From: Nocardioides anomalus
GTDB taxonomy: Bacteria; Actinomycetota; Actinomycetes; Propionibacteriales; Nocardioidaceae
Assembly (NCBI RefSeq): GCF_011046535.1
Contig: NZ_CP049257.1
Location: forward strand, 3,844,001-3,908,000
DNA: 64,000 nucleotides
Direction of reading: 5' to 3'
Shown here piece by piece: positions 979 through 18,921 of the stretch. Positions within the stretch are counted from its first letter, which is position 1. Every line of letters starts with the position of its first letter. Below the pieces are notes generated by a model. That model did no database searches. It was not told the DNA's origin and was given only the letters and a program-made list of their open reading frames with translations. Position numbers and translations under genes: made by a program.

Positions 979-1704
979 TCAGTCACCGGCGCCGGCCAGG
1001 GCGGCCTCGCCCAGGAAGGCCAGCAGCACCGAGGCGTTGTTGCGCGCCTCGGCGGCCGGGCCGCTCCAGACAACCTCGCCGCGCGCCACGGCCACCACTT
1101 CGTCGGCGACGTCCAGACCGGCCTCGGCGTTCTGCTCGACCATGAGTACGCCGATGCCGGAGTCCGCCATCTGCCGCACCGTGGCCAGGATCGAGTCGGT
1201 GACCACCGGCGCGAGCCCCATCGACGGCTCGTCGAGCAGCACCGTCGTCGGCTGCGACATCAGGGCCCGGCCGAAGGCGAGCATCTGCTGCTCACCGCCG
1301 CTGAGCAGCCCGGCCGCGCTCGAGCGGCGCTCGGAGAGGATCGGGAACATCTCGTAGCACTGGGCCAGCGTCTTCTCGAAGGCGCTGCGCGAGGCGGTGT
1401 GCCCGCCGAGCCGGAGGTTCTCGGCCACGGTGAGCGGGGCGAACACCCGGCGCCCCTCGGGCACGAGTGCGACGCCGCGCTTGACGATCTTGTGGGCGGG
1501 CAGCCCGGTGATGTCCTTGCCGTCGAGCGTGACCCGCCCGTCGGTCGGCGCGTGCAGCCCGGCGATCGCCTTGAGCGTGGTGGTCTTGCCTGCGCCGTTG
1601 GCGCCCAGGACCAGGGTGATCTTGCCGGGGGTGGCGCTCAGGCTCACCCCACGGACGGCCTCGACGTTCCCGTAGCCCGCGTGCAGGTCGCTGACCTCAA
1701 GCAT
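979..1704 (-). CDS. livF: Branched-chain-type ABC transporter ATP-binding protein LivF
   Basis: This 241-residue cytoplasmic ATPase is one of two nucleotide-binding subunits of a LivFGHMJ-type importer. It has Walker A GANGAGKTT (about residues 33-41), the signature LSGGEQQML and Walker B VLLDEPSMGLAP. The wording PSMGLAP and the HDHD-free, short C-terminus are typical of LivF rather than LivG. It is the last gene of a five-gene leftward operon, and its ATG overlaps the end of livG by eight bases. Liv-type systems also carry aromatic acids, short amides and other organic acids. Given the catabolic genes around it, the substrate may not be an amino acid. Confidence 0.93.
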   Translation of the reverse strand: MLEVSDLHAGYGNVEAVRGVSLSATPGKITLVLGANGAGKTTTLKAIAGLHAPTDGRVTLDGKDITGLPAHKIVKRGVALVPEGRRVFAPLTVAENLRLGGHTASRSAFEKTLAQCYEMFPILSERRSSAAGLLSGGEQQMLAFGRALMSQPTTVLLDEPSMGLAPVVTDSILATVRQMADSGIGVLMVEQNAEAGLDVADEVVAVARGEVVWSGPAAEARNNASVLLAFLGEAALAGAGD

Positions 1705-2470
1705 CGTTGCGCCACTTCCTTCCGAGGTAGGCCTCCTGGACCAACGGGTTCTGCACGACCTCCGTCGGCGTCCCCTCGGCGATCAGCCGACCGGACGTCA
1801 TCGCGTAGACGTAGTCGCACGTGTCCACCATCATCTGCACGTCGTGCTCGACGAGCAGCTGGCACAACCCGCCACCGCGCATGCCCTGCATCAGCTCGGA
1901 GATCTCGGCGCGCTCGGTCTGGTTCATCCCGGCGGTCGGCTCGTCGAGGAGCAGCAGCCGGGGCCCCATGACCAGGGCGCGGGCGATCTCCACCCGGCGC
2001 TGGGTGCCGTAGGACAACTCGGAGGGGAAGTACTCCTCCATGCCGGTGAGCCCGGTGCGCTCGATGACCTCGGCCACCGAGACGTCGCCGCCGCCGCGGC
2101 CCGCCGTGTCCGCGCCGAGCTGGATGTTGCGCCGCACGTCGAGGTCCGGCAGCAGCCGGACGGTCTGGAAGGTGCGGGCCACCCCCAGTGCGGCCAGCTT
2201 GTGCGGCCGGGTGCGGCGGTACGACGAGCCGTCGATCAGCACGTCGCCGCGGGTCAGCTTGGTCATCCGGGTGATGGCGCCGATCAGCGTGCTCTTGCCC
2301 GAGCCGTTGGGACCGATGATCCCGTAGATCAGACCGGGACGCATGGTGAGGGTGACGCCGTCGACGGCCTTGACGCCGCCGTAGTGCACCGCGACGTCCT
2401 GGACCTCCAGGACCGGCGCCGCGGCCATGGGGTCGTCCTGCGCGGGGCGCTCGGGGTGGGTGGTGGTCAT
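1697..2470 (-). CDS. livG: Branched-chain-type ABC transporter ATP-binding protein LivG
   Basis: This 257-residue ATPase partners LivF. Walker A is GPNGSGKST, the signature region is LSYGTQRRVEIARAL and Walker B is LLLLDEPTAGMN, all typical of LivG. The ATG at 2470 was chosen because it follows a GAGGGGAC ribosome-binding site and overlaps the livM stop as ATGA. A much longer in-frame extension upstream lies over livM and is not real. Residues 1-20 (MTTTHPERPAQDDPMAAAPV) are a short nonconserved extension before the ATPase core. It is cotranscribed with livM and livF. Confidence 0.93.
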   Translation of the reverse strand: MTTTHPERPAQDDPMAAAPVLEVQDVAVHYGGVKAVDGVTLTMRPGLIYGIIGPNGSGKSTLIGAITRMTKLTRGDVLIDGSSYRRTRPHKLAALGVARTFQTVRLLPDLDVRRNIQLGADTAGRGGGDVSVAEVIERTGLTGMEEYFPSELSYGTQRRVEIARALVMGPRLLLLDEPTAGMNQTERAEISELMQGMRGGGLCQLLVEHDVQMMVDTCDYVYAMTSGRLIAEGTPTEVVQNPLVQEAYLGRKWRNDA

Positions 2471-3447
2471 GCTCGTCCCCTCGCGTCGGTCGTGGGTCGC
2501 GACAGCCCGTGCTGGTCCGGCGGTGTCGGCGCCGGGTCCGCGAGGACGAGCTCGGGTTCGTCGCCGTCGTCGCTGGCGAGCTCCTCCGCCCGGCCGTCGC
2601 GGCGGCGCCGCTTGCCCCAGCGGTAGCCGTCGACGAGCACCCCGTGGATGCCGCGGGGCAGCAGCACGGCGGCGATCGCGACGAGGATGCCGTAGATCAG
2701 CTCCTGCCACTGGCCGACCGCGCTGAGCAGGTCCGGCAGCCAGGTGAAGATGACCGCGCCGATGACCGCACCGACCCAGGAGCGGGCGCCGCCCACGATG
2801 ATCATGGTGAGCGCGAGCACGATGAGGGTGAAGCCGATGTCGAGCGGCTGGATGATGCTGCGGACCATCACGTTCATGCCGCCGGCGATGCCGCCCAGCG
2901 CGCCGCTGACCACGAAGGCGACGATGCGGTAGCGCCGCACGTCCACGCCGACCGAGGCGGCCAGCTGCGGGTCGTCGCGGACCGCCTCCACCCGGCGACC
3001 GGTGCGGCCCAGCTCACTGAAGGCGATGAGGGCCACGACGGCGACGGTGATGACGTACATCTGGCTCATCGAGAAGTCGGTGATGACGCCGTACAGGCCG
3101 GTCGAGGAGCCGGTGAACTCCCCGCCGTTGACGGCGATGACGCCGATGATGAGGTCGAAGGCGACGGTGGCCATGGCCAGGTAGAGGCCGTTGAGCCTGG
3201 CCAGCACCAGGCCCAGCACGAGCCCGATGCCGGCGGTCATCAGCGCGGCCAGCGCGATCGCCTCCAGCGCCCCCATCTCCTGGTGGATCACCAGCAGCGC
3301 GGCGGCGTACGCGCCGAAGCCGTAGCAGCCGGCGCCCGCGAAGGAGAAGACCCCCATGCGCAGCGGCACCTGGATGGACAGGGCCATGAGCAGCCCGGTC
3401 AGCGTCGACTGGATGAGGACCAGGTGCGAGTCGTAGAAGAGGCTCAT
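2467..3447 (-). CDS. livM: Branched-chain-type ABC transporter permease LivM
   Basis: This 326-residue integral membrane permease has about eight to nine hydrophobic segments, starting with LVLIQSTLTGLLMALSIQ. It includes the family stretch ARSWVGAVIGAVIFTWLPDLL near the C-terminus. A charged cytoplasmic tail rich in Arg and Asp follows from about residue 275. The ATG at 3447 overlaps the livH stop as ATGA, and the ATG of livG overlaps this stop in the same way, so translation is probably coupled. A longer reading frame upstream lies inside livH and was rejected. Together with LivH it forms the membrane channel. Confidence 0.92.
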   Translation of the reverse strand: MSLFYDSHLVLIQSTLTGLLMALSIQVPLRMGVFSFAGAGCYGFGAYAAALLVIHQEMGALEAIALAALMTAGIGLVLGLVLARLNGLYLAMATVAFDLIIGVIAVNGGEFTGSSTGLYGVITDFSMSQMYVITVAVVALIAFSELGRTGRRVEAVRDDPQLAASVGVDVRRYRIVAFVVSGALGGIAGGMNVMVRSIIQPLDIGFTLIVLALTMIIVGGARSWVGAVIGAVIFTWLPDLLSAVGQWQELIYGILVAIAAVLLPRGIHGVLVDGYRWGKRRRRDGRAEELASDDGDEPELVLADPAPTPPDQHGLSRPTTDARGRA

Positions 3448-4331
3448 GTCCGGCGCACCTCCTTGCGGCCGAAGAGGCCGGCGGGTCGTACCAGCAGGAC
3501 GAGGAAGATCAGGCCGAAGGACACCGCGTCGGTCCACGAGCCGCTGGTGTGGCCCTGGACGTAGACCTCGGCGAGCGCCAGGGCGAAGGCACCGAAGGCC
3601 ACGCCCCACATGCTGCCGACCCCGCCGAGGATGATGATCGCGAAGGCCTTGACCAGCAGCGTGTCACCGCTCTCCGGGGTGATGGCGCCGAGGTAGTAGG
3701 TGAACATCACGCCGGCGAGCCCGGCGAAGGCGCCCGAGGCCGCCATGGTCAGCAGGGCGAGCCGCTGCCGGTCGATGCCCATCAGGCTGGCGGTCTCGGC
3801 GTCCACGCCGATCGCCCGCATCGCCAGGCCCTGGCGGGTCAGCCGCAGCCACAGCGTCGTCGCGGCCCACAGGACCAGCGCGAGGATGATCGTGTAGACC
3901 GCGACGTTGGTGATGAATAGGTCGCCGTGGCGCCACACCGTCACGTCGAAGGTCGACTCCTGCAGACCGAAGGGGTTGCTCTTGGTGTGGTGCTGGGCGA
4001 TGGCCAGGGGGATGGTCGCCACCCCGATGCCGCCGATGAGGATCTGCATCTCCGCGCTGCGCTTGTCGCGCGCCCTCTTGAGGATCTGCTCGAAGGCCAG
4101 CTTCTGGATCACCAGGGACATCACCGCGCCGACCACCACGCCGATCAGCAGGACGGCCACCAGCGGCAGCGACACCGACTCCAGCAGGAGGTAGGCGGTG
4201 AAGGTCGAGAACATGAAGATCGACCCGTGCGAGAAGTTGAGGATGTCGATCGTGCCCCAGGTCAGGCTCATGCCCAACGCGAAGAGCAGGTAGACAGAGC
4301 CCAGGCTGACCGCGGTCAGAATTTCCTGCAT
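3444..4331 (-). CDS. livH: Branched-chain-type ABC transporter permease LivH
   Basis: This 295-residue permease has about eight membrane helices. The N-terminus MQEILTAVSLGSVYLLFALG and the following SLTWGTIDILNFSHGS are the classic LivH signature, in which family members read G..N.AHG. The C-terminal motif DAVSFGLIFLVLLVRPAGLF is also typical. An AGGAGAGGG ribosome-binding site precedes the ATG at 4331. It lies 75 bases downstream of the binding-protein gene and is the second gene of the operon. Confidence 0.93.
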   Translation of the reverse strand: MQEILTAVSLGSVYLLFALGMSLTWGTIDILNFSHGSIFMFSTFTAYLLLESVSLPLVAVLLIGVVVGAVMSLVIQKLAFEQILKRARDKRSAEMQILIGGIGVATIPLAIAQHHTKSNPFGLQESTFDVTVWRHGDLFITNVAVYTIILALVLWAATTLWLRLTRQGLAMRAIGVDAETASLMGIDRQRLALLTMAASGAFAGLAGVMFTYYLGAITPESGDTLLVKAFAIIILGGVGSMWGVAFGAFALALAEVYVQGHTSGSWTDAVSFGLIFLVLLVRPAGLFGRKEVRRT

Positions 4332-4406
4332 GTCCCTCTCCTGTCGTGACGACCCCGGTGCCGGGGCGGTGGCCAGCGGCCACCACCCCGGCGCGGGTCG
4401 TGGCTG

Positions 4407-5603
4407 CTAGCTGTCGCCCGCGGCGTACAGCAACTTGGTCCCGGTGCCGTCCCACTCGACGACGACGCCGGGAACCTCGATGGTGCCGTCCTTCCAGGCC
4501 AGATCGCTGCCGAGCGCGCCGTCCTCGGTCTTGCCGGCCTCGGTCTTCATCCCGTCCTTGATCCCGTCGCGGCTCGCGTCGCCGGCCTCTTTGATGGAGC
4601 GGGCCAGGAACCACGCGGCGTCGTAGGCCTCGGCAGCGTAGTTCAGCGGGTCCTCGCCGTACTCGGCCGTGTAGTCCTTGACGAACTGCTGGCTGGACGG
4701 AGCCGTCTGGGTCGCGTCGAAGTCGACGGGCCACGCCATCCCGGCGCCGTCGGCACCGGCCGGCTTGAGGTTGCCGGCGCTCGCGCCGGAGTTCCCCAGC
4801 ACCTTGCCGGTGTAGCCGGCCTGGCGCAGCTGGGTCATCGCCGTCGGGTTCGAGGCACCGATCTGCAGGATCGACACGACGTCGGGGTCGGTGTCGAGCA
4901 CCTGCTGGATCGCAGCCGAGTAGTCCTGCGTCGCCGAGGTGGTCTCGACCGACTTGGTGACCTCCATGCCCGTCTCCTCGGCGAGGTCGGGCAGCGTCTT
5001 GGTCCCGATCTCGTCGAGGGTCGGGGAGATGTTGGTGTAGATGATCCCGACGGACTTCCAGCCGTTGTCCTCGATGTACTTCTTCATGATCGGGTAGTAC
5101 GAGCTCATCAGTGGCGTGGCGCGGTAGGTGTAGTCACCCACGACCACACCGTCGCTGCCCGCCTGGGTGTAGATGACCGGCAGCCCGGCCTTCTGGGCCA
5201 GCGGCGACTGGGCGACCGCCTCCTGGCTCGAGACCGACCCGAAGGTCGCGGCGACGTTGCGGTCCGCGATCGCCGCGGTCATCTCGCTGGCCGCGGTCGC
5301 GGCATCGCCCTTGGTGTCCTTCCAGCTGAGGTCGATCTTCTTGCCGTCCCCGAGGAAGCCCTGCTCGTTGATCTGCTTGATCGCCAGCTCGTAGCCCTTC
5401 TGGGCGGACAGGCCGGCGAACGCGGCCGGCCCGGTGAGCGGCTCGATGCCGACGACCTTGACCGTGGACGGGATGCCGCCGCCACCGTCGGAGCCCCCGC
5501 TGCCGCCGTCGTCACCGCATGCGGCGACCGAGAGCACTGCCGCCATCGCGACCGCCAGCGTGGCGCCGCGGCGCGTGCGCCGCGATCCGTTGAAGCCGCC
5601 CAT
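4407..5603 (-). CDS. Liv-type ABC transporter substrate-binding lipoprotein
   Basis: This 398-residue extracytoplasmic receptor delivers substrate to LivHM. It has a lipoprotein signal: a basic N-terminus (SRRTRRG), the hydrophobic stretch ATLAVAMAAVLS and a lipobox VAAC with Cys29. A Gly/Asp/Ser-rich linker follows, then a type I periplasmic-binding fold starting VKVVGIEPLTGPAAFAG. The ATG at 5603 was preferred over one at 5627 because it follows GAGGAG at the right distance. The alternative would place the palindrome at 5626 inside the gene. As first gene of the operon it carries the promoter and putative operator. The ligand is unknown. Confidence 0.9.
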   Translation of the reverse strand: MGGFNGSRRTRRGATLAVAMAAVLSVAACGDDGGSGGSDGGGGIPSTVKVVGIEPLTGPAAFAGLSAQKGYELAIKQINEQGFLGDGKKIDLSWKDTKGDAATAASEMTAAIADRNVAATFGSVSSQEAVAQSPLAQKAGLPVIYTQAGSDGVVVGDYTYRATPLMSSYYPIMKKYIEDNGWKSVGIIYTNISPTLDEIGTKTLPDLAEETGMEVTKSVETTSATQDYSAAIQQVLDTDPDVVSILQIGASNPTAMTQLRQAGYTGKVLGNSGASAGNLKPAGADGAGMAWPVDFDATQTAPSSQQFVKDYTAEYGEDPLNYAAEAYDAAWFLARSIKEAGDASRDGIKDGMKTEAGKTEDGALGSDLAWKDGTIEVPGVVVEWDGTGTKLLYAAGDS

Positions 5604-5625
5604 CTCTTCTCCTCGATACTTTGAC

Positions 5626-5641
5626 AATCATGCGCATGATT
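5626..5641. promoter_or_regulatory. Perfect 16-bp palindrome, putative operator of the liv operon
   Basis: AATCATGCGCATGATT is a perfect inverted repeat in the leader of the liv operon, 22 bases upstream of the binding-protein start. It lies downstream of the best promoter candidate (5656-5685), where a bound repressor would block elongation. Related AAYCAT-N4-ATGRTT sites occur at 5760 and 19008, with a half site at 12859. That a regulator binds here is an inference. Confidence 0.55.
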
Positions 5642-5655
5642 CGCATGTGACCGAC

Positions 5656-5685: not shown

Positions 5686-5759
5686 GGGTGGAGCGGAACT
5701 CTCAGGAACCGGGAGTCGACCTCGGCGACCCGCGTCCGGGGCGCCTGTCGCGGACCTCT

Positions 5760-5782: not shown

Positions 5783-6823
5783 GTGCGGATGGGTGTCATC
5801 CTCGGCGACGTCAGCAGCAGCGTCTCGCCACGCGAGCACCTCGACGGGCTGCTGAGGCAGGTCGAGGCCGCCCAGCGCAACGGGCTCTCCCACATCACGA
5901 TGGGCCAGCACTTCCTGTACGGCGACCTCCGGTGGCTCCAGCCGGTGCCCACCCTGGCGCGCATCGCGGCCGAGCTCGACGACCACGTGACGCTGGCGAC
6001 CACCGTCGTGCAGGTGCCGCTCTACCACCCGGTGATGCTGGCCGAGGACCTGGCGACCCTCGACATCCTCACCCGCGGCCGGCTGGTCGTCGGGGCGGGT
6101 GCGGGCTACCGGGAGGACGAGTTCACCGCTCTGGGCGTCGACTTCTCCCAGCGGTTCGCGATGTTCGAGGAGTCGCTGCAGATCATGCAGCAGATGTGGA
6201 CGCAGGACACCGTCACCTACGCCGGCCGGTTCTGGTCGGTCGAGGACGGCCACACCCACATCCGGCCGTGGCAGCAGCCGCACCCGCCGATCTGGATCGG
6301 CGCGATGAAGGACCGGGGCGTGCGTCGCTCGGCGCGGCTCGGTGACGGCTGGCCGATCACGCCCGAGACCCGCGGGCCGGAGCTGGTCCGGCTGCTCTCG
6401 GTCTACGAGGACGAGCGCGACCGGCTCGGCAAACCGCACGTCCGACACCCGCTGCGCCGCGAGGTCATCCCGGCGCCGACGACCGAGGCGGCCTACGCGC
6501 GGTTCGAGGCGATGGCCAAGGACCGGCTGCTGGCCTACGCCCAGCGACAGCTGGCCACGCGCGACGCGGACGAGATCAGCCAGCAGTTCCGCGAGGTGGC
6601 CCGGCAGGAGACGTTCATCGGCACGCCGGACGAGGTCGTCGCCCAGCTGCGGGACTTCGCGGCGCGGTTCCCCGTCGACCCGGTGCTGGTGCGCGCGCAG
6701 TGGCCGAGCATGACCAGCGACGAGGTGGTCGCCTACCTCGACGACCTCGGCCGGGACGTGGTGCCCGCCGTGGCCGAGCTGGAGTCGGTCGCACGCGTGG
6801 TTCGTGACCAGGCCCAGGACTAG
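5783..6823 (+). CDS. Luciferase-like (LLM) flavin- or F420-dependent monooxygenase
   Basis: This 346-residue protein has the bacterial luciferase TIM-barrel fold. Seen in order are MGVILGDVSSS at the first strand, VTLATTVVQVPLYHP in the flavin region, LTRGRLVVGAGAGYREDEF, the GRFWSVEDGHTHIRPWQQPHPPIWIGA stretch (split here only in reading) and a C-terminal FIGTPDEVVAQL motif. Members oxidise or reduce diverse substrates with FMNH2 or F420H2; the substrate here is unknown. The GTG at 5783 fits a leaderless start behind the TATGAT box; an ATG at 5789 is the alternative. No Shine-Dalgarno is visible. It is divergent from the liv operon and its stop overlaps the racemase stop by four bases. Confidence 0.87.
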   Translation: MRMGVILGDVSSSVSPREHLDGLLRQVEAAQRNGLSHITMGQHFLYGDLRWLQPVPTLARIAAELDDHVTLATTVVQVPLYHPVMLAEDLATLDILTRGRLVVGAGAGYREDEFTALGVDFSQRFAMFEESLQIMQQMWTQDTVTYAGRFWSVEDGHTHIRPWQQPHPPIWIGAMKDRGVRRSARLGDGWPITPETRGPELVRLLSVYEDERDRLGKPHVRHPLRREVIPAPTTEAAYARFEAMAKDRLLAYAQRQLATRDADEISQQFREVARQETFIGTPDEVVAQLRDFAARFPVDPVLVRAQWPSMTSDEVVAYLDDLGRDVVPAVAELESVARVVRDQAQD

Positions 6824-7959
6824 GCGACGACGCCGGACTCGCGCAGGCGCCGCACCTGCGGACCGTCGTACCCCAGCTCGGCGAGGACCTCGTCGGTGTC
6901 CGCACCGGGAGGCACGGCGTCGCCCGGGACCGGCGTGCTGCTCCGGGAGAAGCGCGGCGTCACCGCCGGCTGGTGGTGCACGCCGTCCGCCAGCGGGGCG
7001 TACGCCGCACGGGCGGTCGCCTGCGGGTGCGCACGGGCCTCGTCCAGGTCCAGCACCGGGCTCACGCAGGCCTCGACGCCGTCGAAGGCCGCAGCCCACT
7101 CGTCGCGGGTGCGGGCGGAGAACGCGTCGGTGAGCGCCTCGCGCAGCGCCGGCCAGCGGCTGCGGTCCTGGTGGGCGTCGGCGTGCTCGTCGAGGCCGAG
7201 GACGCCGAGGGCGGTGCGGAAGAAGCGCTGCTCGACCGCGCCGAAGGCGACCCAGCGACCGTCCGCGCAGGTGTAGACGTCGTAGTAGGGACAGCCCGAG
7301 TCGAGCAGGTTGTGACCGCGCTCGTCGGACCAGCGGCCCTGGGCGCGCAGGCCGTGCACGAGCCCCATCAGCGTCGCCGTGGACTCCAGCACGTTGGCGT
7401 CGACGACCTGGCCGCGACCGGAGCGGGCGACCTCGAGCAGCGCGCAGGCGACGCCGAACGCGAGCGAGGCGGCGGCGCCGCCGAAGTCGCCGACGAGGTT
7501 GAGCGGGGGCACCGGTCGCTCGCCGGCGCGTCCGATGCTGTGCAGGGCGCCGGTGAGCCCGATGTAGTTGAGGTCGTGGCCGACCACGCCGGCCCACGGT
7601 CCGTCCTGGCCCCAGCCCGTGAGCCGGCCGTACACCAGCCGGGGGTTCCGGGCCAGGCACGCATCGGGGCCAACGCCGAGCCGCTCGGCCACGCCCGGTC
7701 GGTAGCTCTCCACGAGCACGTCCGCCGTGGCGACCAGGTCGAGCAGCACCGCGGCGCCGTGGGGGTGCTTGAGGTCGAGCGCGAGGGAGCGGCGACCGCG
7801 CTCGAGGACGGGGTTGGGCGTGTAGTCCGCCGACGGCCCGGTGGTGCGGTCGACGCGCACCACCTCGGCGCCCATGTCGGCGAGCAGCATGACCGCGAAC
7901 GGGCCGGGCCCGATGCCGGCCAGCTCGACCACGCGCACCCCGGCGAGCGGCCCGCTCAC
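6820..7959 (-). CDS. Alpha-methylacyl-CoA racemase / class III CoA-transferase family (CaiB/BaiF)
   Basis: This 379-residue CaiB-fold protein probably inverts the configuration of 2-methyl-branched acyl-CoA esters. VGHDLNYIGLTGAL places a His at residue 128 and NLVGDFGGAA an Asp at 158. They match the acid-base pair His126/Asp156 described for the Mycobacterium racemase MCR. Class III CoA-transferases instead use a single Asp, and the GHDxNYI motif favours a racemase. Such enzymes are needed for methyl-branched isoprenoid and sterol side-chain degradation, which fits the AtuA-like gene upstream. The GTG at 7959 overlaps the ligase stop as GTGA. It is the last gene of the leftward operon. Confidence 0.85.
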   Translation of the reverse strand: MSGPLAGVRVVELAGIGPGPFAVMLLADMGAEVVRVDRTTGPSADYTPNPVLERGRRSLALDLKHPHGAAVLLDLVATADVLVESYRPGVAERLGVGPDACLARNPRLVYGRLTGWGQDGPWAGVVGHDLNYIGLTGALHSIGRAGERPVPPLNLVGDFGGAAASLAFGVACALLEVARSGRGQVVDANVLESTATLMGLVHGLRAQGRWSDERGHNLLDSGCPYYDVYTCADGRWVAFGAVEQRFFRTALGVLGLDEHADAHQDRSRWPALREALTDAFSARTRDEWAAAFDGVEACVSPVLDLDEARAHPQATARAAYAPLADGVHHQPAVTPRFSRSSTPVPGDAVPPGADTDEVLAELGYDGPQVRRLRESGVVA

Positions 7960-10947: not shown

Positions 10948-11243
10948 AGATCGAGATCCAGGATCAGCGACTGGTAGGCCTTGCCGTGCGGGTCGGCCCG
11001 CAGCGTCATCGACACCCCACCACCCAGGGCCCGGTCGAGGACGAAGTTCAGCCCGTGCACCCGGGGCAGCTCGTAGCGGACCACCCCTCCCTCCACGAGG
11101 GCGCCGAAGTGCGCCTGGACCCGCTCGGCGGTGAGCCGCTCGACGAGCAGCGGGTAGTCGGCCGGGTCGTAGGCGAACACGCAGATGTTGGAGACGTCGC
11201 CCTTGTCGCCGGACCGGCTGGCCGCGAGCTCGCGCAGCCTCAC
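10944..11243 (-). CDS. AtuA-associated small protein (ferredoxin-fold-like C-terminal module)
   Basis: This 99-residue protein begins VRLRELAASRSGDKGDVSNI, the hallmark start of the small domain that accompanies AtuA/DUF1446 proteins. In several bacteria the module is fused to the C-terminus of AtuA. Here it is a separate gene whose GTG overlaps the AtuA-like stop as GTGA, so the two are probably made in equal amounts and work together. The family belongs to acyclic-terpene utilisation operons, but its biochemical role is not established. No transmembrane or cofactor motif is visible. Confidence 0.75.
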   Translation of the reverse strand: MRLRELAASRSGDKGDVSNICVFAYDPADYPLLVERLTAERVQAHFGALVEGGVVRYELPRVHGLNFVLDRALGGGVSMTLRADPHGKAYQSLILDLDL

Positions 11244-12580
11244 GACCCGCTCACCTCGGTCCGCACCGGGACCAGCTCCCGCGGAACGTAGGCCGGGGTC
11301 ACCCCGATGGCCGGCACCACCGACGTGACGTTGCCCCCGCCGCCGGCGGGACCGAAGTAGAGGAGCTCGGTCTCGTGGGCCGCGGTGCGGGCGACGTCCA
11401 GCGAGGTGGTGCGCACCGCGAGCCGCAGGCGCACCTCCGAAGGGTAGCCGCCGGCCATCCGGACACCGAAGAGCGAGTCGACGCCCTGGAGGTCCACGCG
11501 CACCTCGTCCAGCTCCGCGGCGTACGGCTCGAGTCGCTTGCGCAGGACCTCCTCGGCGCGCCGCGCCCGCTCGACGCAGCCCGGGCCACCCCATGACATC
11601 TCCCCGGTGGCGCGCCAGCCCTGGTCGATGCCGACCAGGACCTTGAGCGTGTCCGGTCGTGCGTGACCGCGGGCGCCGGAGATGCGGACGCGGTCGGCGC
11701 CGAGGTCCTCGACCTCGACCTGCGTGAAGTCCGCGGTCACGTCCGGGGTGAGGTACGCCGCGGGGTCGTGGATCTCGTAGTAGAGCTGGGTCTTCATGGT
11801 CATCGCGTCGACCGCGCCACCGGTCCCCGGGAGCTTGGTGATCGTGACGGCACCGTCCTCGACCTCGGCGATCGGGAACCCGAGGTTCCACGGCTCGGGC
11901 ACGACGCGGTACGGCGGGTCCTCGTAGTTTCCGCCCGTGGAGTGCACGCCGCACTCGAGCAGGTGACCGACCATCGTGGCGTGGCCGAGGCGGTCCCAGT
12001 CGTCGAGCTCCCAGCCGAGCTCGTGGCAGATCGGCCCGACGAACAACGAGGGGTCGGCCAGCCTCCCGCCCAGCACGATCTGCGCGTCCTGGCGCAGGCA
12101 GTCGACGATGCCGTCGGCACCCAGGTAGACGTGCGCGGAGACGACCCGGTCACCGAGCGCGCCGACGGTCGTGCCGAGCTCGGGCAGCTCGGCGTCGAGC
12201 GCGGTGACCAGCAGCCGGACCTCGTCGCCGTGCACGACGCCGATGCGGACGCCGGGCAGGCCCACCTCCTTGAGCGCGCGGACGAAGTCGTCGCGGGCGG
12301 CGTCGGGGTTGGCGGCCCCGAAGTTGCCGACCACCCGTCGCCCGGCCGCGAGGTGCGAGCGCAGCAGCGGGACGAGGGCGGCGATGCGGCGGTCCTGGCC
12401 CGCGGAGGGGTCGGCCAGACGTCGCACCTGGGCGAGCGCCAGCGTGCGCTCGGCGAGGCAGTCGAAGCCGAGGTACGCCGCGCGGCCGCTCGCCGCCATC
12501 GCCTCGACGGCGTCGAGGCGGTCCTCGGCGTACGCCGAGCCCGAGGCCAGGACCAGCGGCCCGGGCGCCCCACCGGGCAC
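11240..12580 (-). CDS. AtuA-like protein (DUF1446; acyclic terpene utilisation family)
   Basis: This 446-residue protein has the DUF1446/AtuA pattern: LVLASGSAYAEDRLDAVEAM at the N-terminus, YLGFDCLAERTLALAQ, GNFGAANPDAA, VYLGADGIVDCLRQDAQIVLGGRLADP and a C-terminal PRELVPVRTEVSGS. Family members are encoded in the Pseudomonas atu cluster for citronellol/geraniol degradation and in many uncharacterised acyl-CoA operons. The reaction is unknown. The GTG at 12580 lies two bases after the ferredoxin stop. A possible role as a hydratase or lyase on a branched acyl-CoA is only a guess. Its presence with a methylacyl-CoA racemase points to isoprenoid-like substrates. Confidence 0.82.
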   Translation of the reverse strand: MPGGAPGPLVLASGSAYAEDRLDAVEAMAASGRAAYLGFDCLAERTLALAQVRRLADPSAGQDRRIAALVPLLRSHLAAGRRVVGNFGAANPDAARDDFVRALKEVGLPGVRIGVVHGDEVRLLVTALDAELPELGTTVGALGDRVVSAHVYLGADGIVDCLRQDAQIVLGGRLADPSLFVGPICHELGWELDDWDRLGHATMVGHLLECGVHSTGGNYEDPPYRVVPEPWNLGFPIAEVEDGAVTITKLPGTGGAVDAMTMKTQLYYEIHDPAAYLTPDVTADFTQVEVEDLGADRVRISGARGHARPDTLKVLVGIDQGWRATGEMSWGGPGCVERARRAEEVLRKRLEPYAAELDEVRVDLQGVDSLFGVRMAGGYPSEVRLRLAVRTTSLDVARTAAHETELLYFGPAGGGGNVTSVVPAIGVTPAYVPRELVPVRTEVSGS

Positions 12581-12582: not shown

Positions 12583-12774
12583 TCAGTCGACCTCGATGGC
12601 CAGTTCGGGGCAGCTGTCGGCGGCGAGCTGCGCCTCGTCCTCCTGGCCCGGGGGGACCGTCTCGCTCTTCACGTAGGCGTTGCCGTCCTCCTCACGCGCG
12701 AAGAACAGGTCCGGCGCGCTGATGCGGCACAGGCCGTGGCCCTGGCAGCGCTCGTCGTCGACCTTGACGTGCAT
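12583..12774 (-). CDS. 3Fe-4S ferredoxin of the P450-partner type
   Basis: This 63-residue ferredoxin has Cys10-x2-His13-x2-Cys16 and Cys55-Pro. Actinobacterial P450 partners bind a 3Fe-4S or unusual 4Fe-4S cluster with exactly this replacement of the second Cys by His. A GAGGAGGAG ribosome-binding site precedes the ATG at 12774. It is the first gene of the leftward operon and is divergent from the P450 gene across 135 bases. Although on opposite strands, the two are very likely redox partners, with the reductase at 15879 as electron donor. Confidence 0.92.
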   Translation of the reverse strand: MHVKVDDERCQGHGLCRISAPDLFFAREEDGNAYVKSETVPPGQEDEAQLAADSCPELAIEVD

Positions 12775-12909: not shown

Positions 12910-14199
12910 ATGACCGAGACCGCCTCGACGACACCCACCGGCCGCTGCCCCGTGGTGCACTTCGACCACAACTCGGCCGAGCACGCCGAGGACCCGGTGG
13001 CGTCGTACCGCAAGCTGCGCGCCGAGGCACCCGTCGCCTGGTCCGACGCCCACGGAGGCTACTGGATCCTCTCGGGCTACAAGCCGGTCTTCGAGGCCTC
13101 GCGCGACGACGACACCTTCTCCTCCGAGCGCAACAGCCACGGCGGCGAGGGGCTGTCGGTGGTCATCCCCAAGACCCCGGCGCCGTTCCACATCCCGATC
13201 GAGATCGACCCGCCCGAGTTCCGCAAGTGGCGCAAGCTCATCAACCCGATCACCGCCCCCGCCGCGATCGCGCGGATGGAGCAGATCGTGAAGTTCTACG
13301 TCACCAAGTTCATCGACGACATCATCGAGACCGGACACGCGGACATGACCTCGGTCATCGGTGTCCCCGCGATCGTCACGGTCGACTGGCTCGGCCTGCC
13401 CATCGAGCACTGGGAGCGCTACGCCTCGGCGTTCCACGCGCTGCTCATCGCGGTGCCCGGCACCGAGGAGTTCGACCAGGCCGTGAAGGTGGACCTCCCG
13501 TACCTCGAGGAGGTCACGCGCGGCATCATCGCCGAGCGCCGCGCCGACCCGCGCGACGACATCATCAGCTACCTCGTCGGCTGCGAGGTCGACGAGCGGG
13601 CGGTCACCGACGACGAGGTCTTCGCGATGGTCGACCTGCTGCTGTCCGGCGGCGTCGGCACCACGGCCTCGCTGGTCAGCAACACGGTGGTCTGGCTGCA
13701 CGAGCACCAGGACGTGCGCCAGGACCTCCTCGACCACCCCGAGAAGATGGACCGCGCCATCGAGGAGTTCCTCCGCTTCTTCTCCCCCACCCAAGGGCTC
13801 GCACGCACCGTCACCCAGGACACCGAGTTCATGGGCTGCCCGATGAAGCAGGGCGACCGCGTCCTGCTCTCGTGGGCCTCGGCCAACCGCGACCCCGAGC
13901 TGTTCGAGGCCCCCGACGACCTGGACATCGAGCGCTGGCCGAACCGTCACACCGCCTTCGGCATCGGCGTGCACCGCTGCGCCGGCGCGCACCTGGGCCG
14001 CGCCATGGCCAAGGAGCTGCTCACCCAGATCATCCACCGGATGAGCGACTACGAGGTGGACCGCAGCCAGCTCGTGCGCTACCCCCACCAGGGCACCAAC
14101 AACGGCTGGACCAGCATCCCGGCCACGTTCACGCCCGGGCCGCGGCTGCTGCCCGCCGACGCCACCTCGCCGGCCGACCTGGCCACCGAGCTGCACTGA
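12910..14199 (+). CDS. Cytochrome P450 monooxygenase
   Basis: This 429-residue soluble bacterial P450 is of the class fed by ferredoxin and ferredoxin reductase. The heme loop is FGIGVHRCAG with ligand Cys357. The K-helix ExxR lies in EEFLRFFSPTQGLAR and the PERF-like stretch in DIERWPN. The I-helix reads SGGVGTTAS (residues 246-254). The position that normally holds Asp or Glu before the conserved Thr is Gly250, while Thr251 is kept. The ATG at 12910 begins MTETASTTPTGRCPVVHFDH. The ribosome-binding site is weak (AAGGA 14 bases upstream). It leads the rightward operon. The substrate is unknown; context suggests hydroxylation of a hydrophobic acid or terpenoid. Confidence 0.93.
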   Translation: MTETASTTPTGRCPVVHFDHNSAEHAEDPVASYRKLRAEAPVAWSDAHGGYWILSGYKPVFEASRDDDTFSSERNSHGGEGLSVVIPKTPAPFHIPIEIDPPEFRKWRKLINPITAPAAIARMEQIVKFYVTKFIDDIIETGHADMTSVIGVPAIVTVDWLGLPIEHWERYASAFHALLIAVPGTEEFDQAVKVDLPYLEEVTRGIIAERRADPRDDIISYLVGCEVDERAVTDDEVFAMVDLLLSGGVGTTASLVSNTVVWLHEHQDVRQDLLDHPEKMDRAIEEFLRFFSPTQGLARTVTQDTEFMGCPMKQGDRVLLSWASANRDPELFEAPDDLDIERWPNRHTAFGIGVHRCAGAHLGRAMAKELLTQIIHRMSDYEVDRSQLVRYPHQGTNNGWTSIPATFTPGPRLLPADATSPADLATELH

Positions 14200-14202: not shown

Positions 14203-15882
14203 GTGGCCACCCCCGTGACGACCGGCGCGCCGACCGCCGCCCAGGAGCGGTACGACGTCGTCGTGCTCGGCACCGGGGCAGCCGGTCTCACCGCGGCCCT
14301 GGCCGCCGCGCACGGCGGCGCGCGCGTCGCGCTGTTCGAGAAGGGCGAGCGGATCGGCGGCACCACGGCGCTGGCGAGCGCCGTGGTGTGGCTGCCGGCC
14401 AACCGGTACGCGCAGGCGGCCGGCGTACCGGACTCACGGGAGGAGGGCTTGGACTACCTGGAGTCCCTCTCCCACGGGATGATCCTGCCCGAGCTCGCCG
14501 AGGCCTTCGTCGACACCGTGCCCGAGCTCCTCGACTGGCTCGAGGACGAGACGCCCTGCCACTTCCAGCTCGTGCCCGGCTTCCCCGACTACCACCCTGA
14601 GCACCCCGGCGGGAAGCCGCAGGGGGGCCGCTCGGTCGAGCCGGTGCTCTTCTCCTACGCCCGCGTCCCGGGCTGGGCCGACCGGGTCGTGGGGACCCCG
14701 CGACGGATGAACGTGGCCGAGACCCCGACCGGTGGCGGCACCGGCGTGGTCCCGCCCGACCTGCTGGCCGAGCGCGAGGCCGAGCAGCTCGAGGGGCTCG
14801 GCCGGGCGCTGGTCGGCAGCCTGCTCGCCGGCTGCCTCGAGCGCGGCGTCGAGCCGGTCACGGGCACGCGCGCCACCCGCCTGGTCGTCGAGGGCGGCGC
14901 CGTCACCGGGGTGCAGCTCGACGGTCCGGACGGCCCGCGCACGGTCGAGGCGGGGGCGGTGGTGCTGGCCACCGGCGGCTTCGAGCACGACGCCGACCTG
15001 GTCCGCGACTTCCTGCGCGGCCCGATGCGCTCGCCGGCCGGCGTGGTGACCAACACCGGCGACGGCCTGCGCATGGCCATGCGGGTCGGGGCGCAGCTGG
15101 GCAACATGCGCGAGGCCTGGTGGGTCCCGGTCATGGAGCTGCCCGGCGAGCGGCCCGACGGCGGCCGCGACGTCTTCCTGGTCCTGCGCGAGCGGACCCT
15201 GCCGCGCTCGATCGTGGTCAACGGGAGCGGCCGGCGCTTCACCAACGAGGCCGCCAACTACAACGCGCTCGGCGGTGCCTTCCACGCCTTCGACCCCACC
15301 TCGTTCCGCTACGTCAACCAGCCCGCCTGGCTGATCTTCGACGAGGGCTTCGTGCAGCGCTACGGCTGCTTCGGCAACGGTCCGGGCAGCCCCGTCCCCG
15401 ACCACCTCCACCGCGCCGGCTCGCTGACCGAGCTGGCCGGTCTCATCGACGTGCCGGGGCCCGAGCTGGAGGAGACCGTGACCCGCTGGAACAAGCTGGT
15501 GGACTCCGGTCACGACGACGACTTCGGCCGCGGCGACAGCGCCTACGACGGGTGGTGCGGCGACCGCAGCGCCTACCCCGGGCCGATGGCCACACTCGGT
15601 CCGCTGGACACCGCGCCGTACTACGCCGTCGAGCTGGTCAGCTCGACGCTCGGCACCAAGGGCGGTCCGCGCACCGACGTGGACGGCCGCGTCCTGGACG
15701 TGGACGGCGCGGTCATCCCCGGACTGTTCGCGGCGGGCAACGTCATGGCCGGTCCCACCGGGATGGTCTACGGCGGCGCCGGCGGCACCCTCGGCCCGGC
15801 GATGGTCTTCGGCTTCCCGCGCCGGCCGGGCGGCGGCGGCGTGAGCGCGGCGACAGAGCACGAGAGGAAGGCCCGATCGTGA
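14203..15882 (+). CDS. FAD-dependent dehydrogenase of the KstD / fumarate-reductase flavoprotein family
   Basis: This 559-residue flavoprotein resembles 3-oxosteroid delta1-dehydrogenases. The FAD motif VVVLGTGAAGLTAALAAAHG is at about residues 19-38. VVLATGGFEHD is the second dinucleotide motif. AGNVMAGPTGMVYGGAGGTLGPAM near the C-terminus (two blocks) keeps the Tyr and Gly that activate the ketone in KstD. It probably introduces a C=C bond next to a carbonyl. It starts at a GTG three bases after the P450 stop. The last 24 residues (PRRPGGGGVSAATEHERKARS) are unlike the family. In the +1 frame the sequence gives FGF-RAGRAAAA and a stop at 15842-15844, so a small indel near 15816 is suspected. 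Confidence 0.85.
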   Translation: MATPVTTGAPTAAQERYDVVVLGTGAAGLTAALAAAHGGARVALFEKGERIGGTTALASAVVWLPANRYAQAAGVPDSREEGLDYLESLSHGMILPELAEAFVDTVPELLDWLEDETPCHFQLVPGFPDYHPEHPGGKPQGGRSVEPVLFSYARVPGWADRVVGTPRRMNVAETPTGGGTGVVPPDLLAEREAEQLEGLGRALVGSLLAGCLERGVEPVTGTRATRLVVEGGAVTGVQLDGPDGPRTVEAGAVVLATGGFEHDADLVRDFLRGPMRSPAGVVTNTGDGLRMAMRVGAQLGNMREAWWVPVMELPGERPDGGRDVFLVLRERTLPRSIVVNGSGRRFTNEAANYNALGGAFHAFDPTSFRYVNQPAWLIFDEGFVQRYGCFGNGPGSPVPDHLHRAGSLTELAGLIDVPGPELEETVTRWNKLVDSGHDDDFGRGDSAYDGWCGDRSAYPGPMATLGPLDTAPYYAVELVSSTLGTKGGPRTDVDGRVLDVDGAVIPGLFAAGNVMAGPTGMVYGGAGGTLGPAMVFGFPRRPGGGGVSAATEHERKARS

Positions 15883-17102
15883 CCCCCCACGAGAGCACCA
15901 TCGCCGTCGTCGGCGCCGGGCTGGCCGGTCTGCGCGCCTGCGAACGGCTGCGCGCGGCCGGGCACACCGGCCGGATCGTCGTCCTGGGCGAGGAGGCACA
16001 CCCGCCGTACAACCGACCGCCGCTGTCCAAGGAGCTGCTGCGCGGCACGCTGGACCGCGACAAGCTCCCGTTCCGCCAGCGCGCGGCGACCGAGGACGTC
16101 GAGTGGCGCCTCGGCACGCGCGTCGGGGCCGTCGACCTCGCCGGCCACACGGTCGCGCTCGACGACGGCACCGGGCTGGGCTGGGACGGACTGGTCTACG
16201 CGACGGGCGTCCGCGCCCGCCGGCTCGAGCTCGACGGCGCCGCCTGGCGGCACACCATCCGCACCCTCGACGACGCCCTGCGGCTGGCCCCCTCCCTCGC
16301 GCCCGGCACCCGCGTCGTCGTCATCGGGGCGGGCTTCATCGGCTGCGAGGTCGCGGCCACGGCGGTCGAGCGGGGCTGCGAGGTCACGGTCGTCGAGCCG
16401 CTCGGCACGCCGCTCGAGCGGGTCGTCGGCGCGCAGGTCGGCCGCGAGGTGCAGCGCCGCCACGAGCAGCACAACGTCCGCTTCGCGCTCGGCCGGACCG
16501 TCCGCGCGGTGGCCGACGCCGGCGAGCACCTCGAGGTCGAGCTCGACAACGGCGCCGGCCTGGCCGCCGACGTCATCGTCGAGGCGGTCGGCTCGGTGGC
16601 CAACACCGAACCCCTGGACGGGCAGGGCCTCGACCTCGCCCACGGCGTCCTGTGCGACGACGGCCTGCACCCGCTGCGGGACGGCGAGCCGGTGCTCGAC
16701 GTCGTCGCCGTCGGCGACGTGGCGCGCTTCCCGGTCCGGGCGTACGGCGACGCGCCCATCCGGGTCGAGCACTGGACGATGCCGACCGACATGGCCACGC
16801 ACGCCGCGTCGAGCCTGCTGGCCGGGCTGGCCGGCACCCAGGTCGACAGCACCGGCTTCGCACCGCTGCCCACCTTCTGGAGCGAGCAGTACGGCGTCCG
16901 CATGCAGTCCTTCGGGCTGCCGCACCTCGGCCTCGAGGACGTGCGCGTGCTCGACGGTGACCTGGCCGGCGAGGCCGCGGTCGGCTACCACCGCGACGGT
17001 CGCCTCGTCGGTGTCGTGCTGCTCGGGATGGGCAAGCGGATGCTGGAGTTCCGCACCGCCGTGGCCGAGGCGCGCGCGGCCAGCCTCGAGCCCGCTCGGT
17101 GA
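15879..17102 (+). CDS. NAD(P)H:ferredoxin reductase (FAD-dependent, for the P450 system)
   Basis: This 407-residue reductase has two Rossmann motifs: IAVVGAGLAGLRACERLRAA for FAD at the N-terminus and VVVIGAGFIGCEVAATAVER for the nicotinamide nucleotide in the middle. HPPYNRPPLSKELLRG, VYATGVRAR, VVAVGDVARFP and the C-terminal EHWTMPTDMATHAA also match putidaredoxin/rhodocoxin reductase-type enzymes. It passes electrons to the ferredoxin at 12583, which drives the P450 at 12910. The GTG at 15879 follows AGAGGAAGG and overlaps the upstream stop as GTGA. Confidence 0.93.
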   Translation: MTPHESTIAVVGAGLAGLRACERLRAAGHTGRIVVLGEEAHPPYNRPPLSKELLRGTLDRDKLPFRQRAATEDVEWRLGTRVGAVDLAGHTVALDDGTGLGWDGLVYATGVRARRLELDGAAWRHTIRTLDDALRLAPSLAPGTRVVVIGAGFIGCEVAATAVERGCEVTVVEPLGTPLERVVGAQVGREVQRRHEQHNVRFALGRTVRAVADAGEHLEVELDNGAGLAADVIVEAVGSVANTEPLDGQGLDLAHGVLCDDGLHPLRDGEPVLDVVAVGDVARFPVRAYGDAPIRVEHWTMPTDMATHAASSLLAGLAGTQVDSTGFAPLPTFWSEQYGVRMQSFGLPHLGLEDVRVLDGDLAGEAAVGYHRDGRLVGVVLLGMGKRMLEFRTAVAEARAASLEPAR

Positions 17103-18364
17103 CCCAGGCCCCGATCCCCGTCCCCGCCGAGGGCGACCGGCGCCTCGGCACCTTCCCCGCCTGGCTGGTCGTCGTGCTCATCGCGGCCATCGGGCTGAAC
17201 CTGCGCGCCAGCCTGGGGTCCATCCCCCCGCTGCTCACGGACATGAACGAGGACCTGCACCTCAGCAACACCGCCGCCGGGTTCCTCACCTCGCTCGCCG
17301 TCGTCTTCATGGGCATCAGCGCACCCATCGGCCAGCGCCTCGGGGCACGTCTCGGCGCCGAGCTCGCCACCGGCCTCGCCATGCTGCTGCTGGCCGCCGC
17401 CGGGCTCGCGCGGCTGCTGCCCCTGGGCGCCGGGCTCCTCTTCGTCTCGGTCGCCGTGGCGGGTCTGGCGATGGGCGGCGCATCGGCGCTGATGCCGTCG
17501 CTCGTCGGGCACCACCTGCCGCACATCCGCGGGCTCGCCATGGGCATCTACTCCGCGGGGCTGGCGATGGGGGTCGCGATCGCCGCGGGGACCGTCGTGC
17601 CCCTGGAGCACCTGCTCGGCGGGTGGCGGCCCGCGCTCGCGAGCTGGGGCGCCATCGCGGCCGCCGCCGCCGCGGTCTGGCTGCTCGCCGTCCCCCGGCT
17701 CCGGCGCAGCACCGCGGGCCGTCCCGTCGAGGCGCTGGTCGTGGACCACCGGATGCCGTGGCGCTCGCGGACGGCGTGGTGGGTCACCCTGTTCACCACG
17801 AACCAGATGGTGGTCGGCTTCAGCGGCCTGGCGTGGGTCACGCCGCTCTACGTCTCGCTGGGGATGACCAACCAGGAGGCGGCCAACCGGTTCGTCATCT
17901 TCCAGGTCGTGCAGCTCGCCACGATGCTGACGCTGCCCCCGCTGACCGACTACACGCGCGACCGCCGACCGCTCCTGGCCTTCGTCCTGGTCAGCACCAG
18001 CGTCGGCATCACCATGCTGCTCCTGGACCCCGTCGGGCTGTCCGTCCCCGCCATGCTGTTCTTCGGCGCCGGGGTCGGCGGCGGCTCCACGCTCGGGCTC
18101 CTGCTCATCGTCGACAGCACCCGGTCCCAGCCCGACGCCGCCCGGCTCGGCGCGATGGTCTTCCTCGTCGCGTTCATCGCCGGAGCGGCCGGCCCGGTCG
18201 TCCTCGGACTGCTGCGCGACCTCACCGGCGGCTTCACGGCCGGCTACGCGGTGATGCTCGGGCTGTCGGTGGCGATGCTGGCGCTCACGGTCGTCTACCG
18301 CCCCGGGCGCACCATCGAGGACGTCGCCGAGCCGGTGCCGGCGAGGGTGTCAGCTCACAGGTAG
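17099..18364 (+). CDS. MFS transporter, CynX/NimT-like
   Basis: This 421-residue membrane protein has about twelve hydrophobic segments. The first helix is followed by NLRASLGSIPPLLTDMNEDL, the hallmark of the cyanate/nitroimidazole transporter (CynX/NimT) branch. It then reads SLAVVFMGISAPIGQRLGAR, the loop between helices two and three. The GTG overlaps the reductase stop as GTGA, so it is the last gene of the P450 operon. It could import the growth substrate or export a toxic intermediate. Its stop overlaps the end of the convergent NTF2-like gene by ten bases. Confidence 0.88.
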   Translation: MTQAPIPVPAEGDRRLGTFPAWLVVVLIAAIGLNLRASLGSIPPLLTDMNEDLHLSNTAAGFLTSLAVVFMGISAPIGQRLGARLGAELATGLAMLLLAAAGLARLLPLGAGLLFVSVAVAGLAMGGASALMPSLVGHHLPHIRGLAMGIYSAGLAMGVAIAAGTVVPLEHLLGGWRPALASWGAIAAAAAAVWLLAVPRLRRSTAGRPVEALVVDHRMPWRSRTAWWVTLFTTNQMVVGFSGLAWVTPLYVSLGMTNQEAANRFVIFQVVQLATMLTLPPLTDYTRDRRPLLAFVLVSTSVGITMLLLDPVGLSVPAMLFFGAGVGGGSTLGLLLIVDSTRSQPDAARLGAMVFLVAFIAGAAGPVVLGLLRDLTGGFTAGYAVMLGLSVAMLALTVVYRPGRTIEDVAEPVPARVSAHR

Positions 18365-18921
18365 CGGTGCAGCCACTGCGAGCTGCCGGTGTAGAGCACC
18401 TCGGGCCAGTCGCTGGGCCGGCGGTCGCCGTAGGCCCGCATGCTGTCGGCGGCGCCGAAGCCCTCGGCGTACTCCGAGGAGGGCAGGTAGTACATGTAGG
18501 ACATCAGCCGCGCGGAGAACTTCCAGCGGCCGGCGTCGCGGCGGTACTCGTCCTTGTAGCGCAGCGCGACCTGCATCCCGACACCGTTGCGGAACACCTC
18601 GGCGTGCCCGGTCAGCAGGCCGTACGCCGAGTCGGGGTCCTCCTCGCGGAACCTGACCACGTGCCCGTGGGAGTAGTGGTTGGTCGGGCCGAGGGCCGCG
18701 AACCGGCCGAGGTAGGTCTCCACGATCGACTCCATCCCCGCGGCCTGGAAGACGCCGTCCTGGGAGTCGAGGGTGGCGTCCTCGGTGAAGATCGTGCGGA
18801 TCCCGTGCTCGTCGCGCTCGTCCATGATGACGCCGTAGAGGACGCCGAGCTCCTGGATGCCCTGGCGGTCCTCGACCCGCTGCAGGCGCCGCTCGAGGGA
18901 CGTGTCGGTCGTGCTGGTCAT
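18355..18921 (-). CDS. NTF2-like / SnoaL-like domain protein
   Basis: This 188-residue protein has a cone-shaped NTF2-like fold: LERRLQRVEDRQGIQELGVL at the start, IFTEDATLDSQDGVFQAAGM with conserved Asp, then NHYSHGHVVRF and WKFSARLMSYMYYLP in the sheet. Relatives include ring-hydroxylating dioxygenase small subunits, scytalone dehydratase and ketosteroid isomerase. A dehydratase or isomerase role on a cyclic intermediate is plausible but unproven. GAGGAG precedes the ATG at 18921. It diverges from the oxidoreductase pair across a spacer carrying the shared motif. Confidence 0.75.
   Translation of the reverse strand: MTSTTDTSLERRLQRVEDRQGIQELGVLYGVIMDERDEHGIRTIFTEDATLDSQDGVFQAAGMESIVETYLGRFAALGPTNHYSHGHVVRFREEDPDSAYGLLTGHAEVFRNGVGMQVALRYKDEYRRDAGRWKFSARLMSYMYYLPSSEYAEGFGAADSMRAYGDRRPSDWPEVLYTGSSQWLHRYL

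Follow-up and report, generated by a model that had tools for sequence, protein, structure and literature searches.

The 64,000-nucleotide stretch of the Nocardioides anomalus genome analyzed here (the window; C1:3844001-3908000 of a single 5.12-Mb contig, with a GC content of 73%) carries a catabolic gene cluster at positions 979..18921, in which a cytochrome P450 system is combined with the AtuA protein and its small partner AtuFd (AtuA-ferredoxin-like protein). The evidence leans toward an aerobic catabolic function of this cluster, with a methyl-branched acid or ketone of alicyclic or terpenoid type as substrate and AtuA-AtuFd serving as a C-C lyase. A sequence-only reading had listed a Liv-type importer, a luciferase-like (LLM) enzyme, a P450, a KstD-like dehydrogenase, an aldehyde dehydrogenase (ALDH), an acyl-CoA ligase, a racemase and the AtuA pair, and every one of these genes lies where it had been placed. 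The cluster itself is real, but it is only the right-hand half of a conserved block of about 38 kb (C1:3825213-3862921; hereafter the island), which is about twice the length originally assigned and extends 18.8 kb beyond the left border of the window. Apart from small gains and losses, gene-by-gene comparison found the island to be collinear with two further Nocardioides genomes (G553 and G338) and, in inverted orientation, with a third (G510). All three encode 30 of its 35 called open reading frames at 60–93% identity, a count that covers the 40 kb read left of the window, takes the ligase as two halves and excludes the ferredoxin. More tentatively, the island may stand for an unrecognized family of aerobic actinobacterial pathways, in which oxidation of saturated rings by a P450, an F420-linked LLM enzyme and a KstD-type desaturase is followed by AtuA-AtuFd opening the ring or cutting the side chain at a tertiary alcohol; AtuA and PF23544 proteins would then form a C-C lyase of wide occurrence that depends on a nucleotide and is comparable to those involved in citramalate, acyclic terpene and anaerobic naphthalene breakdown. 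Ordinary beta-oxidation is halted by tertiary and ring carbons, and at the gene level the aerobic clearance of saturated-ring acids such as naphthenic acids and terpenoids is poorly charted. No published description of the cluster was recognized in the literature searched, which mostly did not cover subscription journals, so that a description may exist elsewhere. One candidate, the chcpca cluster of Rhodococcus aetherivorans, was rejected, since the part of its report consulted describes a bad/ali-like set (PMC5906575).

Scanning of genome contigs with an AtuA alignment yielded 26 loci, and a family-level search added four further genomes. Eight relatives with AtuA identities of 69–84% were compared, namely Nocardioides alkalitolerans DSM 16699 (G338), G553, G510, Nocardioides sp. 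TF02-7, Planosporangium thailandense, Plantactinospora mayteni, R. aetherivorans DSM 44752 and R. ruber NBRC 15591, so that the island is available in several named relatives. AtuA, AtuFd, the P450, the LLM protein and the ligase are co-located in all eight, the ALDH and the KstD-like enzyme in seven (Plantactinospora being the exception), the ferredoxin and ferredoxin reductase in six, and the alpha-methylacyl-CoA racemase (AMACR) in five. The search for conserved clusters that the sequence-only reading had proposed has thereby been made, and the genes are indeed kept together in other genomes, contrary to the outcome that it had named as refuting its view. Their orders and orientations vary: both Rhodococcus genomes have a one-strand series (AtuA, AtuFd, ALDH, ligase, LLM, P450, short-chain dehydrogenase/reductase (SDR), SnoaL, KstD), as opposed to the divergent arrangement in Nocardioides. 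The loci of Planosporangium (L011) and strain TF02-7 (L027) are cut by locus ends, and absences there were not counted as losses; the latter, with its many frame breaks, was omitted from the ligase count, the KstD residues, the racemase motifs, the tree and the correlations. The remaining 20 of the 26 loci, several of them short, have AtuA identities of 31–60% and were not counted as P450-type relatives; none has a P450 within the cluster, and a single 34% match lies about 9 kb off in L021. AtuA is rare within the family (5 of 294 genomes at E ≤ 1e-100, including the window genome and one at 44% identity, G512, covered by a 4.3-kb locus only), and in a draw from the phylum it was found in one of 296 genomes, namely the window genome itself. 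Pairwise identities of AtuA, P450 and LLM proteins co-vary (r = 0.82 for 28 pairs, 0.90 and 0.96 for 21 pairs each, without the LLM gene of G510, which is cut at the border of the fetched stretch), a pattern that joint inheritance predicts but that relatedness of the species is in itself sufficient to produce. In the AtuA tree the window protein groups with three Nocardioides sequences, from N. alkalitolerans and two genomes of the same genus (support 99/99), and the two Micromonosporaceae form a second group (97/99). The nearest AtuA matches with a species name likewise come from Nocardioides. The window genome's own CmlA and second AtuA (AtuA2), Marinobacter AtuA and others have long branches, and their places in the tree are therefore unsure.

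AtuA (11240..12580, minus strand; PF07287) and AtuFd (10944..11243, minus strand; PF23544) look like the large and the small subunit, respectively, of a C-C bond-cleaving enzyme. In fold searches, the best PDB match of a model of the fused AtuA of Marinobacter was chain A of citramalate lyase 9EVF, and that of the AtuFd model from the window was chain B of the same entry; the only other row at E ≤ 0.001 in the Marinobacter search, 4pg5, has a TM value of 0.10 and was taken as spurious. The AtuA family profile also matches CmlA (9ERQ_A; E = 1e-8). A phmmer search with the window AtuA alone gave no match among solved structures, and CmlA was reached by the family profile and the fold search only. 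Judged by predicted fold, the pair resembles CmlAB (PDB 9ERQ, 9EVF) in having a CmlA-like large subunit with a CmlB-like small subunit encoded alongside, each with its counterpart as top match; this comparison draws on the titles and molecule names of the PDB entries. In contrast to CmlAB, the small subunit belongs to PF23544 instead of DUF4387 and the genes lie in a context of CoA-ester catabolism. AtuA-AtuFd is therefore not filed as a citramalate lyase, but only as an enzyme that may work like one, and the presence of ADP besides pyruvate in the title of 9EVF suggests that its reaction would be nucleotide-dependent. The sequence-only reading had recognized the AtuA pair and left it without a role; the structural match offers a concrete enzymatic one, in which the pair would cleave next to a tertiary alcohol formed by dehydrogenase and hydratase steps. 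A precedent is given in the consulted part of a review on anaerobic degradation of polycyclic aromatic hydrocarbons, according to which a cyclohexane ring bearing a tertiary alcohol is opened at this position by the AtuA-like ThnQS (PMC12016498). The thn operon of N47 and NaphS2 is described there as combining acyl-CoA dehydrogenases, hydratases, a thiolase and a CoA-transferase with AtuA-like lyases acting on a cyclohexane ring. The island differs by its aerobic character (P450, KstD-like enzyme), and the likeness is one of gene kinds. In addition, a DUF1446 gene of unknown function has been noted downstream of methylaspartate ammonia-lyase (PMC4682846, as far as consulted), a position that would fit the later name CmlA. 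Another publication (PMC7358434) merely gives an annotated lyase gene by name and carries no weight here.

The oxidative part of the cluster starts with a three-component P450 system. The P450 (~12910..14199, plus strand; PF00067) has P450cin, CYP125, CYP130 and CYP142 as nearest solved structures. An acid is usually expected at a position of the I-helix that is occupied by glycine in 14 of 15 sequences compared (motif GGVGTT), the exception being an outlier at 42% identity. The ferredoxin reductase is encoded at 15879..17102 (plus strand; PF07992, PF14759). A ferredoxin was absent from the initial gene calls and was recovered via its orthologs; it comprises 63 amino acids (12583..12774, minus strand), lies between AtuA and the divergent P450, as it does in the six relatives encoding it, and has a CxxHxxC...CP motif, which we take to be the pattern of P450 ferredoxins. 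Its ortholog in L041 matches the single-cluster ferredoxin families PF13459 and PF13370. The complete P450 chain postulated from the sequence alone is thus closed by this small protein. A second P450 that shares about 60% of its residues with the first adjoins an Abhydrolase_3 esterase in Planosporangium (L011:16955-19116), strain TF02-7 (L027) and N. alkalitolerans (L039), the esterase match in the last being partial.

The LLM protein (5783..6823, plus strand; PF00296) was initially regarded as an oxygenase but may instead be an F420-dependent oxidoreductase. Its best NCBIfam model is the F420 subfamily TIGR03619 (143.3 bits, below the cut-off of 166.9). An NADPH:F420 reductase (Fno) is encoded among the cluster genes of Plantactinospora and Planosporangium, with 90% identity between the two, and Planosporangium has FbiC there as well. 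The window genome encodes an F420 synthesis protein and Fno, both scoring over cut-off, outside the island. From these sequence data, use of F420 by the LLM enzyme appears likely.

The KstD-like FAD dehydrogenase (14203..15882, plus strand; PF00890) was aligned to KstD1 (4c3x), for whose catalytic residues roles have been assigned (PMC5348764, consulted in part). The positions of Tyr119, Tyr318, Tyr487 and Gly491 are occupied by Tyr, Tyr, Tyr and Gly, with a 20-residue offset of the 4c3x chain deduced from the tyrosines falling in place, and the designation as a KstD-like dehydrogenase is borne out by these desaturase residues. Ten of the 12 sequences in the alignment, the window protein among them, retain the set (the main KstD-like gene of G553, cut at the border of its stretch, was omitted). 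The two exceptions (L011 4410-5954 and L042 3945-5633), in which the KstD residues do not align, belong to a second KstD-like group, a gene of which occurs in L011, L042 and L051. Neither the best NCBIfam model, ChcC1 (NF053676, 4-oxocyclohexanecarboxylate dehydrogenase; 448 bits, cut-off 1000), nor the steroid KstD model (NF005882; 420 bits, cut-off 788) is reached at its cut-off.

Adjacent to the LLM gene, the class-III CoA-transferase/racemase homolog (6820..7959, minus strand) matches the alpha-methylacyl-CoA racemase MCR of Mycobacterium tuberculosis (1x74/8rmw; E = 1.1e-110 over residues 1–356). GHD and VGDF segments, which presumably contain the residues equivalent to the catalytic His126 and Asp156 of MCR, are present in all five sequences checked, including that from the window, and are absent from the island's second CoA-transferase; the gene is accordingly a true AMACR homolog, as had been proposed. 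The acyl-CoA ligase (7956..9499, minus strand) is split across two frames into a C-terminal half (7956..8621; PF13193 and the end of PF00501) and an N-terminal half (8618..9499; PF00501 positions 2–271), and is uninterrupted, at 510–556 amino acids, in all seven relatives counted. The sequence-only reading is to be corrected on this point; the break may reflect real decay or an assembly error. The ALDH follows at 9484..10947 (minus strand; PF00171).

A pathway consistent with these families would begin with uptake via the Liv importer and/or the major facilitator superfamily (MFS) protein. The P450, supplied by ferredoxin and reductase, would hydroxylate an unactivated C-H bond, and the LLM enzyme, probably F420-linked, could convert the alcohol to a ketone or catalyze another hydride transfer. 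The ring ketone would be desaturated by the KstD-like enzyme, for which the aligned catalytic residues argue, and ALDH, ligase and AMACR, assigned by family, might perform aldehyde oxidation, CoA activation and epimerization of an alpha-methyl group. Acyl-CoA dehydrogenase and hydratases would then set a hydroxyl group on a tertiary carbon beyond the reach of beta-oxidation, next to which AtuA-AtuFd, by analogy of predicted fold, would cut to remove a carboxylate fragment or open the ring, before dehydrogenase and thiolase complete the products.

Several observations weigh against this scheme. Plantactinospora lacks ALDH, AMACR and the KstD-like enzyme, and the 21-kb Rhodococcus stretches contain no AMACR, ferredoxin, ferredoxin reductase, MFS or Liv gene, so that these parts must be dispensable or located elsewhere. 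The LLM protein scores below the cut-offs of all 25 NCBIfam models shown. On the side of the lyase, the large-subunit model is that of the fused Marinobacter protein, which is about 35% identical to the window AtuA; AtuFd has no sequence relationship to DUF4387 (hhalign probability 4) and its profile no match in the PDB, so that the likeness of the small subunits is confined to their predicted fold. Moreover, in the accessible part of one review the release of acetate during terpene catabolism is ascribed to LiuE and not to AtuA (PMC4097962), and the literature on this step, as far as consulted, is not unanimous. Finally, no intact copy of the ligase was found elsewhere in the window genome at E ≤ 1e-60, and given the frame break this strain may lack a working pathway.

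Other functions of the island have to be weighed against the same evidence. If the LLM protein were an FMN-dependent Baeyer–Villiger enzyme, it would turn a P450-derived ring ketone into a lactone to be opened by an esterase, with AtuA confined to the lower pathway. The name of its best PDB sequence match (7bip, given only as a luciferase-like monooxygenase) and the Abhydrolase_3 esterase next to the second P450 at three loci are in line with such a route, but the F420 subfamily model, the presence of Fno, and in one case FbiC, in the clusters of the two Micromonosporaceae, the absence of any esterase from the window copy, and a KstD-like enzyme for which lactone formation has no need make it rather unlikely. 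Aromatization of the Chc type, in which a cyclohexane carboxylate would be turned into an aromatic resembling 4-hydroxybenzoate through P450, alcohol dehydrogenase and KstD-like desaturase, would agree with ChcC1 as best model of the KstD-like protein and with the second KstD-like gene at three loci. The published route, in the portion consulted, likewise proceeds from a P450 through dehydrogenation to two desaturases (PMC9795900), and the island shares with this chc cluster of Sinomonas cyclohexanicum the succession of a P450 system and KstD-type desaturation of a ring ketone. However, the ChcC1 score is far below its cut-off, the window's block has a single such desaturase, and the scan of island genes revealed no ring-cleaving dioxygenase. 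AMACR, AtuA and the beta-oxidation genes, which together with the Liv importer distinguish the island from chc, would be superfluous for aromatization, and we regard it as distinctly unlikely.

A sterol or bile acid variant, with the P450 acting on the side-chain end, AMACR on the methyl branch and the KstD-like enzyme on ring A, would account for the resemblance to CYP125 and CYP142, the AMACR homolog and the conserved KstD residues; P450, AMACR, KstD-type enzyme and thiolase are indeed shared with the actinobacterial sterol side-chain and ring pathway. Yet this genome has a separate KstD (893 bits, cut-off 788) and steroid thiolase FadA5 (688 bits, cut-off 515) near 1.92–1.96 Mb, and the cluster's own enzyme reaches only 420 bits with the steroid model. 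G553 also has both, but G338 and G510 carry the island without a KstD or FadA5 match over cut-off, which makes a mainly steroid role very unlikely. Of the substrates named by the sequence-only reading, an alicyclic or methyl-branched acid continues to fit and a steroid-like one hardly does. We give little credence to the notion that general catabolic parts merely travel together without forming one pathway: the separate losses in Plantactinospora and Rhodococcus and the other catabolic blocks alongside would suit it, but the set recurs in differing orders and orientations, and related clusters without AtuA (see below) retain P450, KstD-like enzyme, LLM, SnoaL, ALDH, MaoC and acyl-CoA dehydrogenase together at all three loci opened. 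Classic atu-type use of the acyclic terpenes citronellol or geraniol, finally, is extremely unlikely. The atu pathway of Pseudomonas and Thauera (PMC4847356) has in common with the island AtuA, a CoA-ester gene set and a tertiary carbon to be passed. In contrast to it, the scanned island genes contain no acyl-CoA carboxylase domain, in agreement with the earlier remark that geranyl-CoA carboxylase is absent, and a carboxylase pair adjoins another AtuA copy (L007). The window AtuA also differs in subfamily and stands outside the group of the Marinobacter and L007 proteins, whose branches are long.

The preferred reading, lyase-dependent catabolism of a branched or alicyclic compound, is extended by the left part of the island. 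It encodes a second set of class-III CoA-transferase, ALDH, ligase and LLM protein, two SnoaL-fold proteins, SDRs, and a beta-oxidation set made up of a thiolase, a pair of enoyl-CoA hydratases and an acyl-CoA dehydrogenase; no counterpart of this dehydrogenase was seen in G510. The left ALDH has 85–86% identity to proteins in Rhodococcus, and the family genomes with a match at E ≤ 1e-180 are the four island-bearing ones and no others. The acyl-CoA dehydrogenase, which is a member of this beta-oxidation set, reaches into the window with its 5' end (1..124, minus strand; C1:3842847-3844124, with the Pfam acyl-CoA dehydrogenase domain on the L006 part); its orthologs adjoin the regulator gene in G553, G338 and L010. 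This GntR/FCD regulator (213..974, plus strand; PF07729, PF00392) is conserved at 73–83% identity in G553, G338, G510 and L010. It is followed on the minus strand by the Liv-type importer, consisting of the LivF-type (979..1704; PF00005) and LivG-type (1697..2470; PF00005, PF12399) ATPases, the LivM-type (2467..3447) and LivH-type (3444..4331) permeases (both PF02653) and the LivK-type binding protein (4407..5603; PF13458). At the right end lie the MFS transporter (17099..18364, plus strand; PF07690), whose nearest model is CynX/NimT (TIGR00896; 205 bits, cut-off 406), and a SnoaL_4 fold protein (18355..18921, minus strand; PF13577) with distant matches to the uncharacterized protein 3b8l (E = 6.7e-7) and the dehydrochlorinase LinA (3a76; E = 8e-4).

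Between ligase and ALDH, Rhodococcus, G338 and G510 have genes for an acyl-CoA dehydrogenase, a CitE-type lyase and a MaoC hydratase (the latter two families assigned on the Rhodococcus proteins), and G553 has the dehydrogenase only. The trio is absent from this position in the window genome, where a CitE homolog with 57% identity is encoded at 3802073, about 23 kb left of the island. Sister clusters exist in other Nocardioides genomes, of which three (L073, L074, L075) were opened among six family genomes with a P450 at 56–59% identity. They contain homologs of the P450 (58–59%), the KstD-like enzyme (60–64%), LLM (45–47%) and MaoC (68–69%) proteins, besides SnoaL, ALDH and acyl-CoA dehydrogenase, and no AtuA within the 19–20 kb read at any of the three loci. 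The oxidation module would thus represent a family of clusters for which AtuA is one possible partner. Two of the three also contain a gene of the UGSC family.

AtuA homologs occur in other settings as well. In a plasmid collection they were found in 78 records at E ≤ 1e-60, every one below 60% identity, and the collection thus gives no sign of a recent plasmid-borne copy. At loci of Acidimicrobiia-type metagenome-assembled genomes (L014-L023, L026), AtuA, AtuFd, ligase, LLM and two CoA-transferases stand together in 9 of 11 cases (L022 is short and L026 has no ligase), with neither P450 nor KstD in the cluster. The window genome itself has a second catabolic block at L005:1865-19405 (C1:3805865-3823405), comprising an old yellow enzyme-type flavoenzyme, a P450, an LLM protein and a pair of CmlA and DUF4387 genes. 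The pair follows another part of this block (L005:12656-19405), which consists of thiolase, enoyl-CoA hydratase, AtuFd, AtuA, amidohydrolase and two acyl-CoA dehydrogenases and contains most of the kinds of genes on the thn list; the block as a whole has many of these kinds. Within the stretches fetched from the three Nocardioides genomes, the L005 block lies beside the island in G553 only. A further AtuA and AtuFd, 0.54 Mb from the island (L007:2614-10425), are accompanied by the biotin-dependent carboxylase pair and two acyl-CoA dehydrogenases, and this region looks like an atu or liu locus.

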